Assembly (NCBI GenBank): GCA_001972305.1 | Contig: BDDD01000361.1 | Coordinates: forward strand, 465,140 to 529,139 | Source of the DNA: Cephalotus follicularis | Lineage: Eukaryota > Streptophyta > Magnoliopsida > Oxalidales > Cephalotaceae | Reading direction: 5' to 3' | DNA length: 64,000 nucleotides | Shown here: positions 43,620-55,689 of the stretch, in pieces | Layout of the letters: every line of letters begins with the position of its first letter | How positions within the stretch are numbered: the first letter of the stretch is position 1 | The notes under the pieces: model-generated | What the model saw: only the letters and a program-made list of their open reading frames with translations | Databases searched by the model: none | What the model was told of the DNA's origin: nothing | Translations under genes and position numbers: made by a program

Positions 43620-46600
43620 CTACATTCTGTTGTTGGATTTCTCTGCTGCTCTTGGAGCTATGGGCCAGTCCAAAAATAATAATATTCATTATAAGTTCCA
43701 AGCTCTGACAGTCACCCATCAATTGCAATTTTACAAATTTAAGTGCAACGAGAAACAGAATTTAAGGAAAAATGAATGCTAGACAAATCAAAATCATAAT
43801 CTAAGATACTACCGCGAAGCAATTTTCCCTCGTCTGCCCTGGGCATCACAGATATTCACGTCATACCAAACTATCGGGTCCAATAACATTATAAAACAAA
43901 TCCCGCACCGATATATTTGAGCCATCTTCAGACTAAGCTCAAAGCCCAGGGTAACAACAAAGCAGCTTAGCTGCACACAACTCGTTTTGCATGATGCACC
44001 TTCAATAAGAAGGGCTCCATGAAAAATTGTTAATGCAAGAAAGTATAAATCCATGGTTTTTAGTATCCTGACCAAGATGTAATGCTATTTGTTAAGTTTA
44101 TTACAACCAGTTCATGTTGTAGGGTCAACTTAGAGTCTCAGATGATCCCTGGTGTCTTCCAACTCAATACCTAATTTTGTTGATAGCATTCATTATCAGC
44201 AGGCACTTAATGTGACACCATGAATGTCAAATTACATAAATATGACAGTTTACCCACCCCAAGTACAGATCAGTACTTTTTCTTTTTTTATTTCCCCCAT
44301 TTGTTTCTATATACTTCTCTTCTTTTGAACCCGAATGCAAGACAGTAGGCTCACGCCCACATAAACACAGTCTATCAGTGATATGACCTTAAATGCTATG
44401 TTTGTCAAATAAGTTTTACACACCTAAGCCAATGGCATCAGAGCTCTTCATGATCTTCAGCCTCTTGCATGAATCAATAAACATCCTGTGATTATACAAA
44501 TTGGGGTAAGGAGCACAATTGTACATGGCAATCAAAGCAGGAATTAGACCATTGACCATGACAATATATCTTGAAACGCTTCTTTGGAACTAAGAGAGAA
44601 AAGTTTAGTTCATCAATAATGATAGTTAGCAATCCAATCAGTGATCAACAAGGAACACATTGATAAATCAAGACCAAGTAATCTGTGTGTATTTAGAAAT
44701 AGTAGATCAATCAAAAAATTGCAAGGCCAGCTACCATCGGCAGTTAAGTTTTACTAAAGAACAAAACTGCAAAGCATTTCATTTTGATATTCTCTGGCCT
44801 ACATCTTTTCTGTGGTTGAGATACTTCCATGCTACAAAGCTTACTTAATCAAATATTACACCAGACTCGAAATTCTGAACACGGAAACTACATAAACAAA
44901 TTTCAATCTTTTCCCTGAACAGCCCGAATATGAATTTGTTAACATGATTAAACTATATCTGGCATACTTAATTAAGAAGATCAAACTTTTCTGGCATTCT
45001 GACAAAGATTTTGCAACATTTTACCAGAGACTTATATAGTAATCGACAAATAAATCTAGTTTTTAATATTTAAGGAAGCAGTAATTTAAACTAAATGATC
45101 AGATCCATAACTTCAAAAATTATATCAGCTGTTGTATTTCATTTCATAGGAAATTATGCAACTAGTTGTCCAGTGTATGCCATGAACTTATTGTATTAGT
45201 ATAAGGAAAGGAGAATGGACAGATTTAATTAGATATTGCCTTTTGTAGCCCAGGATTTTCTCACAAATAAGCTGCTTTTTTCAGGAAAAGAAAAAGAATA
45301 TGAGAATAGTTTTTGAAAAACAAATAAAGAGAAAATTATAAACCAGAAAGTGAATAAATCATACCCTACCAAGTCAAAGGAATAGGTAGCTATATCTTCC
45401 GATTAGAAGGCACTTCAGTAAAAGTATTACATGACAAACAATCAAGACATGCATGATATGGTTAAAGTGAAATGGAAAGGAAGGCGTTTACTACTCCTAG
45501 ACCACCTCTTGCATTTCCCTTTATGCTTACGTACTTCATCATTGAAGATGATGATCACGTGAAATATCCTCAACTTTGAATTATATAAAACACAAATGAA
45601 CAAAATAGAATATGTATCCTTTGGGCGAAATAGCACAATAGGGAGTGGTTTCAATAGAAGTTGCAAGAAAAAGTACTCTAATTCACTACATGGACCCATG
45701 CCCGCTTTAGTTTGATTATCCTAGTATTGATTAGAATCTTAAGTTTTTTTTTTTTTTTGAAAAAAAAAATACAAATAAAATTGTAGCTTGTGCTTGTGTA
45801 AGATTAAATTAAAACAGCAGGAATAAACTATTGGTCACGGAGTTGTCACGATAAGTCATGTATAAAACCCAAGCAATGCATCCAAAGCTCTTCCATGCTG
45901 ACAAACTATTTAGAAGTCTGATCATAAACATCAATACTAACAATAGTTCAACAATTTCCCCAAACCACCATCATTAAGAATTCTGAAAACTTGAGCGACA
46001 AAGGTAACAAATGACATTCAAGTAGGTAAAAGCTTACTCCCATGGGACATCCCCAACAAGCATCCAGTCACCATCCTTATCCTCAAACGTAAGCACATAT
46101 TCTGATCCATGCAGAAGATCCCTCAGCTTGCTCTCACTCAGTTTTTCCCTTCCTGGAGCACCATGTGTTCCACATTGACCTAAAATCAGAACAGAACTGT
46201 AGTAAGTAAATTCATGCCAACAAGGTGTACAAGGTCACATTCGCATGCATCAAAACACTATGGATTACCTATGGTAAAACAGCTGAACATCTTCTCAAGA
46301 GCAGTAGACAGTTCTTGATAGGTGGAGTAATTTCTCAAATCTACCTTTCTCAGGTAAGGAGCACCATCCATACTGACCTTGACAAAGAGAGCTCCAGGCC
46401 CAGGTTTTCCATCAACTTCGTCATTGTTCTTTGAAGTGGTAGCCAACGTATTCTTCCTAAATGATCTAATCGGAGGCCAGCCAACAACCTGTGCCCTGTC
46501 ATTGATGACGGGCATAAAGAAACCATAATTAATAAATCATAACATCATTTTACCATAACCTTTCCCTTAAAATGTTAGAAAACCCTCTTTCAAGGAAGTA

Positions 46601-47273
46601 ATACTTACTTGGCAGCTGGTGCATTGCTGTTGTTATTAGTGGCACCCATCTGAATAAGGTCAATTTCATTGGAGGCACGAGACTGTTCCTGTAGCCCATT
46701 GGAGCCCCCCTCTTTTTTTGTGCCTTGTTGAGCCCCAGAAGGCCTGGATGACATCATCACATTAATCCCTGAATTACAAGAATACTTACCTTGTCCAGCA
46801 GGCTGCAGAGATTCGGAATCAGGTCCAGCTACATGAAACATCCAATTTTTTTCTGAATAAACAGAACCTTTCACCTTGGAGAACTCATCCATGGTATCAG
46901 AGAATACTCTTTTGTTCCCCAAAACAACATTCTTCTGGGATGGTGAACAGATTCCATCCTTTGAAGGAAGCAAAGGAAACAGCAACTTCTCATCGAGTTT
47001 CCCTGAGCTCCGCACACCTGGTTCTCTTTCAGGGGATTGTGATCCAGGCGGACCAAGCCTCAACTCAGTCGCCTTCAAATTCAGATTGCTCTTGCTGCCC
47101 TCCTGCAAGCTTGAGACTGCAGAGCTGTCAACAGAAGAGCAATCTGAAAGCCCTAGATAATTACGTTCTTTAAATCCTGATCCATTCTGGGAGATACACT
47201 CAATAGAACATGAAGAAGTCACCAAAGAGATATTGCTCGGCCCTTCCTCCACGCCCAGCAGTGGTGGAGACAT
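43620..47273 (-). CDS. IAA9: Aux/IAA auxin-response repressor, IAA8/IAA9 type
   Basis: Five coding exons on the minus strand: 47273-46609, 46495-46269, 46179-46038, 44485-44424, 43657-43620 (1134 nt, 377 residues), all with GT...AG introns and matching phases. The start [10 protein letters not shown] is typical of this clade. Domain I (EAR motif, which recruits TOPLESS) is [14 protein letters not shown] at 70-83, where family members I recall have LGLPG, so the third Leu is Pro (codon CCG). The degron [14 protein letters not shown] (224-237) is intact, allowing TIR1/AFB binding and auxin-triggered breakdown. The PB1 domain (about 257-350) has the basic face [18 protein letters not shown] and the acidic DKDGDW motif (331-336), used to pair with ARF factors in the nucleus. 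C-terminus [15 protein letters not shown]8 versus IAA9 is not settled. Confidence 0.93.
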
Positions 47274-48480
47274 CAGGCACTAAAATTCTCAAAACAACTT
47301 CTTTAACTGCTCAGAATGAAAATAACCCAGATTAAATTTGCTGCAAAATATCCCCGAAAAACAGACATTATGTAAAGGGGGAAAAAATTCAAAGATCAAA
47401 TAGGAATTAAAAATTGGTAGGCCTTAAATTGACAGAGACCCAAGAGAAAACCCATCGCTACATTAACAATCTTCTAATCATTTCAACGTTTAAAAGCAAA
47501 CAAGTGTTGTTTACAACATTGTTAAATTTATTTTCTTTTAATGCACTCTTCATTTCGTTAGTGTTTCCTGCAGATTAAAATGGTTATTAAGGAAAAACAG
47601 TCAAATTATGAAGAAATCTGCTTACTGCAACACTAAACCAAAGCTGATAACATGCAAACTTTAAGATGCCAAAAGAATGAGCTTAATATAACTAACATGG
47701 CTTCAACTACTTTGCCAAGACTAAATCATACTGATTTTAAATGTTAAAATATTTTAGAATTAATTTGAATGTTTAACCAACAACTTTACCAAAACCAACT
47801 TTAAAGTTCTAGAACAAAAATACTAGAAAGCTTAAATTTTGTTCAACTTCTTTTAAAGTCAACTGTCATAAATAATTTTTTTTACTTTTCTGGATGAGCT
47901 AAAAAAATTTCTTCTCTTGAAAATTTAGCACAGTAAAGGAAATAATGGCCCTAATCTCATTTTCCTTCTCTTTTCCTTCAACTTTCTCAGCTACCAAACA
48001 AAACAAACAGACAAAAAAAAAACAACTTAGGACCCAAAAAATTGAGCCAAAAAAACAAAAGCTTAAGAGATCCAAAAACCGCAAAATATAAAACAAAAAC
48101 TAGTATATTAAAATGCAAGACAAAAACTAGTATATTAAAATGCAAGCTCGGTATTTAACTAACCAACAAAAAAGAAAAAAAAACACAGACATTGAGAGAG
48201 ATACTTACAAGGTCAAGATCTCAGCATACACACAAAGTCAAATCTCAAGCGAGCGAAAAAAGCATGCAATAAAAAATTAAAAAAAAAATAGCAAATGTTA
48301 ATGAGATAAGGTGTGTTGGAGATGCAAAAACACGTACCTTAAATACGTATGGGGATCAAAGAGAGTAGAAGAGTGGGTTATATGAGCTAAATTTGAAGAA
48401 ACTGAACGAATTGCAGATAAGCAACAGGAGAGAGAGAGGAGTCTAAGGTCCTTCCATTAAGCCGAAAGCAACAACAGCTT
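47274..48480 (-). other. 5' UTR of the Aux/IAA gene with a predicted 1.06-kb intron
   Basis: Upstream of the ATG the minus strand has an acceptor TTTTAG (47285-47280) just six bases before it. A strong donor AAG|GTACGTG lies at 48338/48337, after a CT-rich leader (CCTCTCTCTCTCCTG near 48425-48440). A second possible donor (TTGTAAGTATC) lies near 48206. IAA8/IAA9-like genes often have an intron before the start codon, so a leader intron is likely, though not proven without cDNA. The intron is AT-rich and holds a 27-bp tandem duplication. Confidence 0.6.
48093..48146. repeat. Exact 27-bp tandem duplication in the leader intron
   Basis: Two copies of a unit starting ACAAAAACTAGTATATTAAA and ending ATGCAAG are identical and adjacent (48093-48119, 48120-48146), suggesting a recent duplication. 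Confidence 0.95.
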
Positions 48481-48504: not shown

Positions 48505-48510
48505 TTATAA
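48505..48510 (-). promoter_or_regulatory. Candidate TATA box of the Aux/IAA gene
   Basis: TTATAA on the minus strand, about 30 bases before a CT-rich leader. Transcription would start near 48475. Only 66 bases further upstream begins the MITE-like element that carries the Pack-MULE. Confidence 0.45.
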
Positions 48511-48782
48511 AATTAAAAGGGTAAGGGACAAAATGGAAATTACACCACAAAACCAGTGCTGCTGTTTTACTACTAGCGTTTGGTTCGAAAGAAAAAAACA
48601 TTCACGTAATAACATATTCCCTTAAGAATTTTATTTTATTTTTAGGAATTTCATTTTTATATTCTATTTGGATTAATAATATTGATTCTTATAAATATTT
48701 TATTTCATTATTTGATTCAGTACAAAAATATAATAAGAATATAAGTAAAAATCTTATAATATATTATATATCATATTCAAAA

Positions 48783-50106
48783 GGGTAAAATACGAAAATA
48801 CGTCTAGATTTTATATAAGATGACACTTTAACCATTCATATTTTAATAAGGACATAAAAACCACTGATCTGTTATAAATCATACATGTTGACACCTAACG
48901 TTAGTTGACCGTGCAAGGCTCCGTTAGCCACGTCAGTAATCCACTTAAAACTATATTTAATTACTATTTTACCTTCTTTATCATCCTCCTCACCAAATAT
49001 CTCAGCAAACCAGAAGCAATATATACAACACAGTGCAAACATCAAAAATACAGCAAAAACCACTGTAAGGCACAACCTCCCTCAAAGATACAGCAAACAT
49101 CAAAAAAATAAGGCCATGGAGACCTCCAAAAAAACCTGCTGCCACACTGCAAGGCAGCTACCAGCACAAACCACTGCCCTCAAGGCTATCGGGAAGATGC
49201 AGATTGTCATCAGTGTATTCAACAGCAATACAAACAGAAGCTTTGTTTCCAAATCAGTGGGTGTTTATTGCTTACTTACCAATCTGAAGCTCGATTCTTT
49301 GAAGCTTTAGCCATACACATGTGTCCCAAAGCATGCTGGGCAAGTTCCACATATGGGACTGTGACAAAAGCTTGGCCCCTCATTCTTCCCTCCTCCAAAA
49401 CTAACCATACCAGCCGATTCTTTTATGAATATATTTACTGAACTTTCTAAAAAAAAAATATCTCACACATTTTCTTTGGCTTTAGCTTTGGCCTCGGCGA
49501 ATTCATCCTGGGTCTCAGCTAACAAGCCAGTGGGAGCTCCGACGAGAGCCGTCTCACCCTCGGGGACGACGATGGCAGCGAGGATTCTGTCGAAGAAGGT
49601 CCCGACGTCCATGTCAGCTTTATCGGACTAGACGATGTCGCTCTTGCCTTGGAGTGAGCGTCGCCCTCGGATTTGATCCAGGAGACGATCTTACCTTCGG
49701 TCATGGTGGAGTTAAGGGCGGGCATGAAGATTTCTCTGATCTTGGCATGGACGGCTGGGATGCGTCTTGGGCGGAGTGATTTGGAGGGAAATGGAGGGAG
49801 GAAAGAAGGGGAGATGGAGGAAGGGAAACAAATTGTGGCTGTTTTGGAGAGGAAAGGAGCGGGGGCCATTAATTCTTTCTCTGCATAAGAGAGAGAGCTG
49901 TAAAATGAGAGGGGAATGAAACGGGAGAGAAGGGGAAATTAGAGGGAGGAAAGGGGCTGAGAAGACGAGGGTATTTATGTCTTTTCATTTATAATTTAAC
50001 AGTTGTTAACGGCGTTTAATTTTTTGTGTCAAACTATCCTTATTAAAATATGAGTGGTTAAAGTGTCTTCTTATGTCAAACTTAAACGTATTTTTGTACT
50101 TTACCC
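48783..50106. mobile_element. Pack-MULE (1324 bp) carrying part of a plastid PDH-E2 gene
   Basis: Long terminal inverted repeats of about 85-90 bp start GGGTAAAATACGAAAATACG on the left and GGGTAAAGTACAAAAATACG (complement) on the right. They share ACACTTTAACCA and CTCATATTTTAATAAGGA-like blocks. The flanks TATTCAAAA (48774-48782) and TATTCAGAA (50107-50115) match at 8 of 9 bases, the 9-bp duplication typical of Mutator-like elements. No transposase is present, so it is non-autonomous. Inside lie a fragment of a nuclear gene (49468-49960) and an unidentified stretch at about 49000-49330. Confidence 0.85.
49468..49869 (-). pseudogene. LTA2: Captured 5' end of plastid pyruvate dehydrogenase E2 (dihydrolipoyl acetyltransferase)
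   Basis: The minus strand starts MAPAPFLSKTATICFPSS, a Ser/Pro-rich plastid transit peptide, then KIREIFMPALNSTMTEGKIV and SWIKSEGD, the start of the lipoyl domain of the plastid E2 subunit. Further down, a different frame encodes the lipoyl-lysine site SDKADMD and PEGETALVGAPTGLLAET, then an Ala/Lys-rich linker. So the frame shifts once inside the lipoyl domain, and a stop (TAG) stands just before SDKADMD. The catalytic domain is absent. A CT-rich leader (49870-49960) was captured too. It is a dead gene fragment, though its promoter-proximal part may still be transcribed. Confidence 0.85.
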
Positions 50107-50783
50107 TATTCAGAATAAGTTATTTTTGATAAAAAAAAAAACTATATAAATACACATAAATCTATCTATATGTATAAAGAGAGAGATTAATCATATTACT
50201 ATATAATTAATTGATAAAACAATAGGTAAAATAGGTATTTAAATTTTATTTTTATGAGAATATTGGATTTTCATCATTTTTGTAGGAATCACATTCTCAT
50301 ATTTTATGGATAAGTGATTGTCATAGGATTATCGTATGTGGGAATATAACATTCCCATAGAAAATACCCCGAACCAAATGCACCGGTAATGTAGGTGTGT
50401 TTTTTCATCCATTTTATATACGAGATAGTATCTATTGTCACTTGGTAGTTTACCACTGATACGAACGAACCCAGCCCAGCTGAAATCCGTCGCGCTCATT
50501 ACGAGGCCAAGCCTCCCATCAGATACTCACCTCGTAGGTTCAGCATATCATAGTTTCAGAAATACATTTTTAAACAAAAGGATTTCTTTAAAAAGTTGAA
50601 AATAATTCTAACTCTTAAATTTTTACGAAAATCGGGCATGTAGTATCCGTTTATCGGACTATACCCCATGTAAAGAAAAAACACAATTCAAAATCGACAC
50701 TCCCGAAGGAGGAAATCAACAATTTATAAATGGGCTCAGCCCTCAGCAGACCACAATTTAAAACAGAAAACAAGTATGGGTTG

Positions 50784-53630
50784 TGTCAAGCCCGGACCCA
50801 GCCCGGCTGGAATCCGTCGTGCCCGCTACGAGGCCAAGCCTTCCAACAGAGACTCACCTCATAGGTTCAGCAGAACAGAGATTCAGAAAAGCATTTTAAA
50901 ACAGAAAGTTTCTTCAAAACAGAAAAGTTTCTTGAAAAACTTGAAAATAATTCTAACTCTTAAAATTTTACGAAAATCGGGCATGTAGTATTCGTTTATA
51001 GGACTATGCCCCCTGTAAAGAAAAACACAATTTATAAAATCACACTTCCGAAGGAGGAAAAAGTTTGTAATGCGCTCAGCCCTCAACAGACCACAATAAA
51101 AACAGAAAACAAGTATAGGTTGGGCTCTGCCTCAACCATATTATCAAAAACTTAAAACCTGAATAGGGTTCAACCCTTTTTAAACAAAACCAAAACAGTT
51201 TTATAAAAACACAAGAAATACAGAAATTTAAACACTAATAAAATGATAATATGCATGTGTTGACTCTGGTAGCATGTCCTTTATATGGTCTCACCTCAGC
51301 AGACAAACAGACTCCAACTGATAAAGCGCAGCAGACTAACCTGTCAAAACTAAAAACAGAAAACAGAGGAGAGGGTTAGTCCACAGGACTAGTGAGATGG
51401 AACAAAAAGACTCCGCAGAGTTTTACTCGCATATAAATATATTTGCAGAAATGTATTACTAAAGTATAAAACAACTGAAAACAGAAATTCAGAAACAGAA
51501 ACAAAAGCCAAAATCTGGTTTATAAAACCATGTAAGACATTTTAAACAGAATATAAATCCAAAACCAATTCTAAAACCGAAATTTCCAGAAGTCAACAGA
51601 AATTCATATCATTCCTTTCAAACAGATTAAATCCTCAGATTTTCATATGTACATATATATATGATAGTAACAGAGTTTAAACAGAAAAATATATAAAGAT
51701 GCCATGGGGTCTACTAAGTAAGGTCGACGTCTGGGCCCCGTCGGGCCGAACGTCCAGCAGAAATAGTGGCAAGGACACCGTCGTATCCAAGCATCAGCAG
51801 AAAGTCATACACGTGTAGACAAAGCCTCTCATGGGCATCAGATATATATATATATATAATACAATACCGAGATCACCATGCATCTAAACATACTTAACAG
51901 ATTTCAGAAAACAGAATTTCAGAATTTCAGAATACAGAGACTCATCTGAGTCATCAAAACAGATTTAAACAGATAGAGGAATCATTTTTCTCATCGTATA
52001 CAGATATAGCAGAAAATAGTGTCATAGTATGACTATAACCGTGCGAGCATTTGAAAACAGTTAATGAAAGTTTCAGACATTAAAACTTAAACAGATTTCA
52101 GAACAGAAACAGATTCAAGTTTCATTCATATACGGAAAGCAAAACGTAAAACGTTTGAAACATTCAAACCATTAAAAGAAACTCCAGAGTAAAAAGGTTA
52201 AAGAAAGTGTTCCACTCACAGTACAGACGAGCGAGTCCCTTGACTGGTCGCCTCCATGGCCGACCTCAAAGGCAGGATCCTCTGTCAACAGACAGATAGA
52301 CAGACAACAGACCATCAGAACTCAGACAGATAAAAAGACTATCAGAACCTAAGCATGCACAAAACCGTGCAATGCGTTATGCAATGAAATACGTGCGGAT
52401 GTCAGAAAACCATAACGACCTATCCGGTCGACAGAAACAGAAGTTTGATTATCAAAAACATCTTTTAAACCTTCAATTTAAACATCCATTCGAAAACATT
52501 GAAGAAAGTCCAAAATCATTAAAGTTAGTCCAAGTGGTTGTTCAGGTTATCCAATTCGAGTCATATAAGCAATTTAAGTTCATATGCAACAGAAACAGAT
52601 ACAGAAATATAGAAAACAGCAGAAAACAGAATTAACGGAACAGAGTTCGGAATTTACCGAAAGCTGATGAAACGGAGCACAGAGTCGAAATCCCGCAGCG
52701 GAACTGGAACGGATCACATCACCGCAGAGAACGGAGTCCGGATCACATTCCGAAGTTTCTCGCCGGAGGGTCGCCGGCGCGTGGGCCCACGCGCCACCGC
52801 TGGCCGGCGAGTGACAGCCACGCGCGTCGCCGGTCAGCCGCAGAGGTCGCATCTGGAGCGCTGGAGGCCGGGGAGCACGGATCTGAGGCGCGTTGGGTCT
52901 GGCGCCGCCACATATGGCCGGAACGGCCGTGTTGACCATGGATGTCCTTCATCGATGATCGATGTTGCCGACGTCGTCACGGGTCGAGGCCGGTACCGTT
53001 CGAACGGCCGCAACACCAGGAGTCCGAATCTGGGCTCGCCTTGCCGTGACGACCACCGAAGACAGAGAAACGACGGGAAACAGTGGCGGAGATAGAAGTG
53101 CTCGCCGGGCGCAAACGGCGCGGTTGCGGACGCGGGGGAGGGGTGCGGTGTGCTCGGGACGTCCTGGCGGTCCCGTTGGTACCTTCGTCGGCGTCAGATC
53201 GGCACTGACGCCGGCGGCAGAAGGCTAAAACCGGAGAGAGACGGGAGAGAGGAGAGAGAGAGCGGGAGAGATGAGAGAGAAAGTCCAAATTTTTATTAAA
53301 AAATTTGCATTTTCAAATATATATATAATTTTCACCATAACAGAAAGAGTTTTGTCCAGAATTTAATCGTTACAGACAGAAATTGGATATTTAGGGCATA
53401 CCACTTGGGCTATTTTTCTGAATCAGCAGTCATTTCAGAAAAATATCATTTAATTTACGGAAAGGCAAATTCATTTCTTATGTAAAAAACAATCAGAATA
53501 AAATCATAAAAATTTAAAATAATGCCATGATGCATATCTTGAATGCCAGAAAACAGATTAACAGACCGACAGACAGACAGAAGCCATGTAGGCTCACAGA
53601 TACAGACCGTACAAGGACACGGATGTCACA
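50784..53630 (-). mobile_element. Solo LTR, family X, copy 2 (2847 bp), nested in copy 1
   Basis: TGTCAAGCCCGG to GGATGTCACA, flanked by a perfect 5-bp duplication GGTTG (50779-50783, 53631-53635) that lies within copy 1. On the minus strand, a TATA-like tract near 53315-53330 is followed by a CT-rich stretch (53230-53285) and a GC-rich leader (52680-53225) that contrasts sharply with the AT-rich remainder. A frame of 103 codons (53288-52977) in the leader is alignable with one in copy 3 but shows no known domain. Confidence 0.88.
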
Positions 53631-55689
53631 GGTTGGATTCCGCTTCAAACATATTATCAAAACATAAATAAAACAAATAGGGCTCAGTCATTCTAAACAA
53701 AACCAAAACATTTATATAAAACATAAATAATGCATAATTTAAAATGTTGATATAGTGAATGATATGCATGTGTTGACTCTAGTAGGCATGTTCTTGTAGT
53801 CTCACATCAGCAGACAGATTGACTCCAGTTGACAGAGCTCAGCGGACTAACTGTTAGAACTAAAAACAAAAACAGATAAGGGATTAGTCCACGGGACTAG
53901 TGAGATGGAACAAAAGACTCGGACAGGGTTTTTACTAGCAATAAAACATATTTTTACAGAAATGATACAATCAGAAGTATAAAACAAACTTAAACAGAGG
54001 TTCAGAAAAAGAAAGAAAATCAGAACTCTGATTCATTAAAACAGGTTAAAACATCTTTAACAGAATATCAGAAGAACATATTAAAAAAATCCAAAACCTG
54101 ATTTAATAAACATATTATAAAATAAGTTTAACAGAGTCAGCAGAAAAAATCAGGTCTTTATCTTAACAGATAAATCAGCAGAAAACTCAGATATATGTAA
54201 TAGTTAACAGAGTTTAAACATATTAAATATATAAAGATACAGTGGGTCTACTAAGTAATGTTGACGCCTGAGCCCCGTCGAGCCGAACGTCCAGCAGAAA
54301 TAGTGGCAATGACACCGTCGTGTCAAAACATCAGTAGAAAGTCATACACGTATAGACAAAACCTCTCATGGGCATCAAATAAGTAACAAATACAATACCA
54401 AGATCACCAGTGCATCGAAATATATTTAAACAGAATCAGCAGATACAGAAATCACCAATACCTCAAAACAGACTTAAAACATATTCAAATAGACGGAAAA
54501 CATATTCAAACTGATACAGAAATCATTTTCTTATCAATTACAGATATATCTAAAAATAGCGTAATACTATGACTATCATCATGCGAGCATTTGAAAACAT
54601 TAAAAAAAAAGTTTAAGACATCAAAACTTAAACATCCTTCGGAAACAGAGTAAATCCAAATTCTTTCAGATACGAAAATAAATAAATGAAAACGTTCAAA
54701 CATTCAAACCATTTAAAAGAACTTCAGAGTTAAAGAGTTAAACAAAGTCGTTCCACTCACAGAACAGACAAGCAAGTCCCACGACGGGTCGCCTCCATGG
54801 TCGACCTCAAAGGCAGGATCCTCTGTCAACAGACAGACAGACAACAGACTATCAGAACTCAAATACATACTATGACATAAAATGCTTTATGCAATGAAAT
54901 GCATGCAAATGTCAGAAAACTATAATCGACCTATACGGTCAACAGCAGCAGAAGTCCGATTGTTAAAAACATCGTTTAAACTTTTAATTAAACACTCTTT
55001 CGAAATCATTAAAATAAGTCCAAGTGGTCGTCCAGGTTATCCAATTTTGAATCATATAAATCATTCGAGTTCTTAATATCGCAGAACAGATACAGAAATA
55101 CAGAATTCAATGAAAAACAGAATTAACGGAGCAGAGTTCAGAGTTTACCGAAAGCAGACGGAACGGAACACGGAGCCAGAATCATGTGGCCGAACCAAAA
55201 CGGATCACACCCACACGAAAAACGGAGTCATAATGTTGGACGCCTCTAAAACGTGCTACCGGAGGCTGCCGGGGAGTGAGCTCACGCGCCCCCACTAGCC
55301 GACGCTTGTCAGCCACAGGCTGTCGCCGGTCAGTAGCAGAGAAAGTCGCATCTGGTGCGCCGGAGGCCAGGGATCACGGATTTGAGGGGCGTTGGTCACG
55401 GCGCAGCCGCATCTGGCCGGTTACCGTGACGGTCACCGGAGAAGGCGGATCGACGCAAAACAGAGGCGAAGAGAGAATAGCTCATGGCGCGTGCATGGAG
55501 CGGTTGTCGGCGTCAGGGTGGGGTGCGGCTTGCTCCGGAGACCGAGGCGGTCCCGTCGATGCCTTCACAGGCGTCGTTTCGGCAGTGACGCCGACGGCAG
55601 AGAGAAGAGAGAGAGAGAGAGAGAATGGGAGAGAGGATAGAGAAACTTGGGAGAGAAAGAGAAAAGCCAAAAAATGATAATTTGTTGGC

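Follow-up and report, generated by a model that had tools for sequence, protein, structure and literature searches.

A Pack-MULE holding the captured start of a plastid PDH-E2 gene and a nested LINE fragment, inserted in an older repeat near an Aux/IAA gene of Cephalotus follicularis

Structure of the element

A non-autonomous MULE of 1324 bp was identified at positions 48783-50106 of the window, the 64,000-nucleotide stretch of Cephalotus follicularis DNA that was analysed (contig BDDD01000361.1, positions 465,140 to 529,139 of the forward strand). Very probably it is a member of a multicopy Pack-MULE family that captured the start of a plastid PDH-E2 gene, and this copy holds a nested LINE fragment, was inserted into an older repeat and carries the E2 piece as a neutral passenger. 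Its identification as a Pack-MULE is well supported; the element is of an ordinary type and has an internal history that is in part unusual. The initial annotation had proposed a Pack-MULE with a PDH-E2 gene start; this core was retained, while the LINE fragment, the older host repeat and the broken E2 frame had gone unnoticed.

The element starts at 48783 with GGGTAAAATACG and ends with GTACTTTACCC at 50106. Long terminal inverted repeats, as expected of a Pack-MULE, were located at 48783-48852 (plus strand) and 50037-50106 (minus strand), the left and right ends agreeing at 61 of the terminal 70 nt. The inverted arms as a whole measure 87 nt (48766-48852 and 50037-50123, 82% complementarity) and overshoot the element borders slightly; they are shorter than the 100-500 bp typical of MULE terminal inverted repeats and longer than the threshold of 50 bp, both as given in the accessible part of PMC3310237. 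Target-site duplications of TATTCAAAA (48774-48782) and TATTCAGAA (50107-50115) match at 8 of 9 positions, within the two mismatches permitted for the 9-11 bp duplications of Pack-MULEs. Subterminal MULE sequence follows at 48853-48994 (plus strand), common to many members up to about 48981 with the final stretch present in fewer, and at 49971-50036 (minus strand). The GC content was 0.54 in the E2 segment, 0.36 in the remaining element, and 0.35 and 0.38 in the 5-kb flanks. Elsewhere in the window, GC-rich islands stand in AT-rich DNA at 52600-53200 (0.61-0.67) and 55200-55600 (0.64).

The element has no transposase of its own. Its longest frames, of 139, 133 and 109 aa, matched no Pfam family at E up to 0.01, and a 74-aa window frame piece matched none at E up to 1; the same scan also misses the broken E2 frame, which means that a small decayed remnant of a transposase might escape it as well.

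Genomic copies and insertion site

Querying the 1.58-Gb genome with the whole element returned at least 109 matches when the best 40 of 354 candidates were scored. Near end-to-end copies with 85-90% identity were found at C523, C502 and C718, the match at C718 stopping at element position 1294 of 1324. The E2 segment alone, with all 37 of 37 candidates scored, gave 44 matches at 36 loci: 26 in the MULE family of the window (end sequence GGGTAAAGTACGAAAATACG), each assigned by at least one family end, 8 in a second MULE family, one probable parent and one paralog. Sixteen copies were submitted to the duplication test and 12 were testable, three having reached the left sequence limit and C718 also being left out. 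Every testable copy had a duplication of at least 7/9: six were 9/9, four 8/9 (including that in the window) and two 7/9, although C4778, in the 8/9 class, lies inside a TTA repeat and is a weak case. Because the ends and the 9-bp duplications recur in other copies at separate sites, the pairing of inverted ends in the window is not due to chance. The paired ends, the duplication and the coordinates given in the initial annotation were correct, and the family copies possess both features whose absence it had named as evidence against its reading.

Some members of the end family have tandem ends on both sides: C756, and by position C231, C1176 and C41. The C756 element (C756:204748-210582) is about 5.8 kb long with a perfect 9-bp duplication, ATTTTTTAA. 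It was considered as the autonomous partner and rejected, as it has no frame longer than 170 aa and four of its longest frames had no Pfam match. A search for MULE transposases yielded at least 150 matches (150 of 982 candidates scored), none tied to the window-family ends, and revealed no autonomous element bearing those ends. One MULE transposase domain (C718:30569-30853) lies about 1.5 kb from an element copy, which may be chance.

The insertion site was characterized with the joined MULE flanks as query. At least 41 non-self matches were obtained (best 40 of 376 candidates scored), of which 38, at 69-77%, run uninterrupted over the insertion point, a few of them being near-duplicates of one another; the other three are short second pieces. 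As these 38 copies cross the insertion point, the MULE was inserted in an older dispersed repeat, and its borders are confirmed. The repeat spans 48575-50383, with outer ends GCGTTTGGTTCG ... CGAACCAAATGC placed approximately and by eye. The insertion target is thus this older repeat and not the promoter proper. "MITE-like" is a weak label for the repeat: a clean MITE was rejected, as local inverted alignment of its two flanks scored 23, below the shuffle mean of 25. Further to the right, at 50460-51400, a near-repeated stretch (GGACTAT.CCCC.TGTAAAG and nearby) was seen by eye, also beside the copies at C88 and C2416; it is probably a high-copy repeat.

Origin of the E2 piece

The captured E2 sequence is on the minus strand and consists of a coding piece (49476-49869; from codon 1 to codon ~133, including the transit peptide and the lipoyl domain) and a CT-rich leader of about 100 nt (49870-49970), delimited by alignment to an E2 gene at C4950. 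Identity of 49476-49970 to the start of that gene was 88% including the leader and 93% over the coding part alone. The alignment begins 121 nt upstream of the parental ATG and ends at codon ~133 in a single open, intronless stretch. The initial annotation had stated that lack of similarity to plastid E2 genes would count against it, and had called for a search for an intact parent; the C4950 gene answers both. It encodes MASSPFLSKTATICF... with Biotin_lipoyl and E3_binding domains, catalytic-domain exons are present downstream, and it is located elsewhere in the genome without MULE ends. It is the probable parent of the captured fragment. A paralogous E2 gene is present at C421. The CT-rich leader and transit peptide had been recognized previously, together with what was taken for the start of the lipoyl domain; the piece in fact covers the full length of that domain.

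Compared with the parent, the window copy no longer has an intact E2 frame: 1 nt and 3 nt are deleted at two places and one TAG is present. The window frames are without Pfam match, and the piece is assigned to E2 from its alignment to C4950 and from the sister copies. Across 20 copies the coding piece was 93.0-99.1% identical to the parent, several copies being partial and the top value covering 106 nt only. One difference from the parent is present in 17 of 17 copies, which fits a single capture.

The closeness of the E2 part to the gene would also be expected if E2 had been duplicated segmentally or as a pseudogene, with inverted ends by chance and no transposon capture. This reading has practically no probability left: the ends and duplications are recurrent at many loci, paralogous repeats are uninterrupted at the insertion point, and E2 homology stops where the MULE subterminal sequence begins. 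Capture by a Pack-MULE is therefore preferred.

Internal history

About one third of the element, at approximately 49005-49458, is, from its layout and genomic matches, a 5'-inverted LINE 3' end with poly(A). The inverted 5' part of this truncated LINE 3' region occupies 49005-49417 on the minus strand; 49064-49417 is 93% identical to a sequence at C1723, and 49005-49063 is less clear. The direct 3' end of the same LINE and its poly(A) run, likewise matching C1723, follow at 49418-49458 on the plus strand. To the left lies a remnant of the LINE target duplication (AAATATCTCA, 48995-49004), and to the right the second copy of this duplication runs into the deletion junction with the E2 segment (49457-49475). 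A twin-primed LINE insertion is expected to leave an inverted 5' part followed by a direct 3' part, poly(A) and a target duplication. All of these parts were present, the duplication being reduced in the window copy. In the class A copies (C835, C4778 and C1072) the LINE unit is bordered on both sides by (AT)ATCTCACACATTTC, measuring by eye 14 bp in C835 and 16 bp in C4778 and C1072. Relative to class A, the window subfamily has lost part of the left LINE duplication and some 210-255 bp between the LINE and E2.

The frame upstream of the LINE end in C1723 had at least 150 matches in the genome (150 of 1129 candidates scored). A relative at C27 contains RVT_1 and zf-RVT domains in two frames, and the LINE assignment rests on this relative because the 78-aa LINE tail itself had no match in Pfam. 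An earlier candidate, that the first insert was a captured spliced gene, had been suggested by gapped matches and was ruled out by the LINE 3'-end evidence.

In longer members of the family E2 continues as far as codon ~160, where other sequence is attached. The inner fragment of class A had no match in Pfam; it is probably itself repeat-derived, because 41 matches were found in the genome, the three class A copies included. A subtilase piece is present in the class B copies (C1409, C125, C1277, C2589, C1367 and C2416), and its best match is a 788-aa frame at C80 (97%). The C1409 copy (C1409:155967-157790) has a 340-aa open frame in which the E2 transit peptide and lipoyl domain are fused in frame to the subtilase piece (Biotin_lipoyl E=3.2e-12; Peptidase_S8 E=8.6e-12). 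The copy at C5678 carries a piece of an FSH1 serine hydrolase (E=3.4e-11).

The eight loci of the second MULE family (ends GGGTAAATTACACAAAAAC) hold two E2 scraps. Both ends could be located by pattern in three of the eight (C3082, C788 and C1550), all with perfect 9-bp duplications. Compared with the parent, GAG is changed to CAG in seven of the eight loci, C21 having TAG there, and 6 nt are lost in seven, C1550 having a larger loss that covers them. In the same alignment the class A and B copies have CAG in 9/9 and the 6-nt loss in 7/9, with a larger loss in the other two. The paralog at C421 has, by eye, the parental state at both sites, so CAG and the 6-nt loss appear to be derived in the transposons. 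Most likely, judging from these common changes, the E2 piece was handed from one MULE family to another, in a direction that is inferred from length.

A more far-reaching proposal would be that the family is a working exon-shuffling line, in which transit peptide and lipoyl domain are fused in frame to new partners, such as the subtilase of C1409, transferred from one MULE family to another, and in the window provide a new upstream start for the Aux/IAA gene. This proposal is considered very unlikely.

Substitution pattern of the E2 fragment

Several open frames suggested that the E2 fragment might be kept by selection as a small functional plastid protein, with a transit peptide and a solo lipoyl domain. 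A 135-aa frame ending in the LINE duplication is retained in C523, C502 and C718, and in C523 it matches Biotin_lipoyl (E=2.4e-11). Among 17 copies the E2 frame is unbroken in eight, which leaves a little room for function, and broken in nine, including the window copy. The substitutions do not favour selection. Differences found in single copies, with the parent taken as ancestor and with C2557a and C2557b near-identical and hence not independent, amounted to 24 synonymous, 77 nonsynonymous and 5 stop changes in the 17 copies, against a context-matched neutral expectation of 29.8, 71.4 and 4.8. For all events the counts were 42 synonymous (54.5 expected), 121 nonsynonymous (108.2) and 6 stops (6.3). 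The departure from neutrality is an excess of nonsynonymous changes, opposite to purifying selection, which was rejected as there was no deficit of nonsynonymous or stop changes. A selected function is highly improbable.

Mean pairwise distances were 8.0% for E2 (17 copies), 9.7% for the left end (15 copies) and 9.4% for leader plus right end (17 copies). A greater conservation of E2 than of the MULE ends was considered and rejected, these values not being clearly different. For the LINE part the distance was 4.3% (7 copies). The E2 fragment is best regarded as a neutral, decaying passenger that probably has no function.

Position relative to the Aux/IAA gene

The neighbour outside the element is an Aux/IAA gene, with coding exons at 46037-47279 on the minus strand. 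AUX_IAA was matched on two exons (E=1.8e-36 and 1.6e-21), and the 5' exon fell below the Pfam cut-off (E=0.011). It is presumably IAA8/IAA9-like. Since a TATA-like stretch lies near 48505, the transcription start is predicted at about 48475, some 0.3 kb from the element. The E2 segment and the gene are on the same strand, and the orientation and distance proposed in the initial annotation agree with these results. Such an arrangement would allow an effect of the element on the gene.

The corresponding explanation is a regulatory change, in which the E2 leader or the MULE ends start read-through transcripts or draw silencing to the promoter. Besides the proximity, a TATAAAT-like stretch just upstream of the leader in the window copy (C361) and in C523, C502, C3325 and C1844 is in its favour, and it was absent in C718 and in four copies of other classes in which the leader was found. 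MULE terminal inverted repeats with promoters driving internal sequence are reported in the accessible part of PMC3310237. Against it, the capture starts so close to the parental ATG that it probably took in little or no parent promoter, four AATAAA and two ATTAAA motifs, which resemble poly(A) signals, are present on the minus strand in the interval from E2 to the Aux/IAA gene, and an older repeat already stood between the MULE and the proximal promoter. A regulatory change at this gene is given a very low probability.

Conclusions

The preferred explanation remains a Pack-MULE copy with a neutral passenger. An ancestral non-autonomous MULE would have taken a copy of the first part of the plastid PDH-E2 gene that today lies at C4950, comprising the leader and the approximately 160 codons seen in the longest copies, probably in a single event. 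Mobilisation in trans by a MULE transposase would then have distributed the family to at least 26 loci. A 5'-inverting, twin-primed insertion may have placed the LINE 3' end in one lineage, and a later deletion, if the order of events is as proposed, would have joined the LINE to E2 codon ~133 and given rise to the window subfamily. Thereafter the window copy would have been inserted into the older dispersed repeat upstream of the Aux/IAA gene.

Pack-MULEs were reportedly the subject of a study by Jiang et al. in 2004, which PMC8903248 cites. The Pack-MULEs of rice, tomato, Arabidopsis and maize, as described in the accessible parts of PMC8903248 and PMC3310237, are likewise non-autonomous, with inverted ends, a 9-bp duplication, several copies and gene fragments, which in certain members come from two or more loci. 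The window element differs in its nested 5'-inverted LINE end and in the presence of its E2 fragment in a second MULE family. The PM-ZIBP family of tomato is likewise multicopy, with a gene fragment and with single-TIR and tandem-TIR members, the tandem layout being described in tomato and Arabidopsis (PMC3310237, accessible part). It captured another gene, whereas the window copy is single-TIR and E2 in the tandem members C756, C231, C1176 and C41 is putative. Pack-TYPE and Pack-CACTA elements also capture and shuffle coding DNA (PMC8903248, accessible part) but belong to another superfamily; the window ends and duplication length are MULE-like. A literature search on Pack-MULEs and pyruvate dehydrogenase returned, within the text available, a single paper, which concerns flax Ty1-copia.

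The locus is a clear stack of events, namely an older repeat, a MULE within it and a LINE that the MULE encloses, and a probable parent of the captured piece has been located. It points to the second-hand passage of a captured gene piece between MULE families, and it might be used as a natural experiment on the effect, if any, of a captured leader on an auxin gene next to it.
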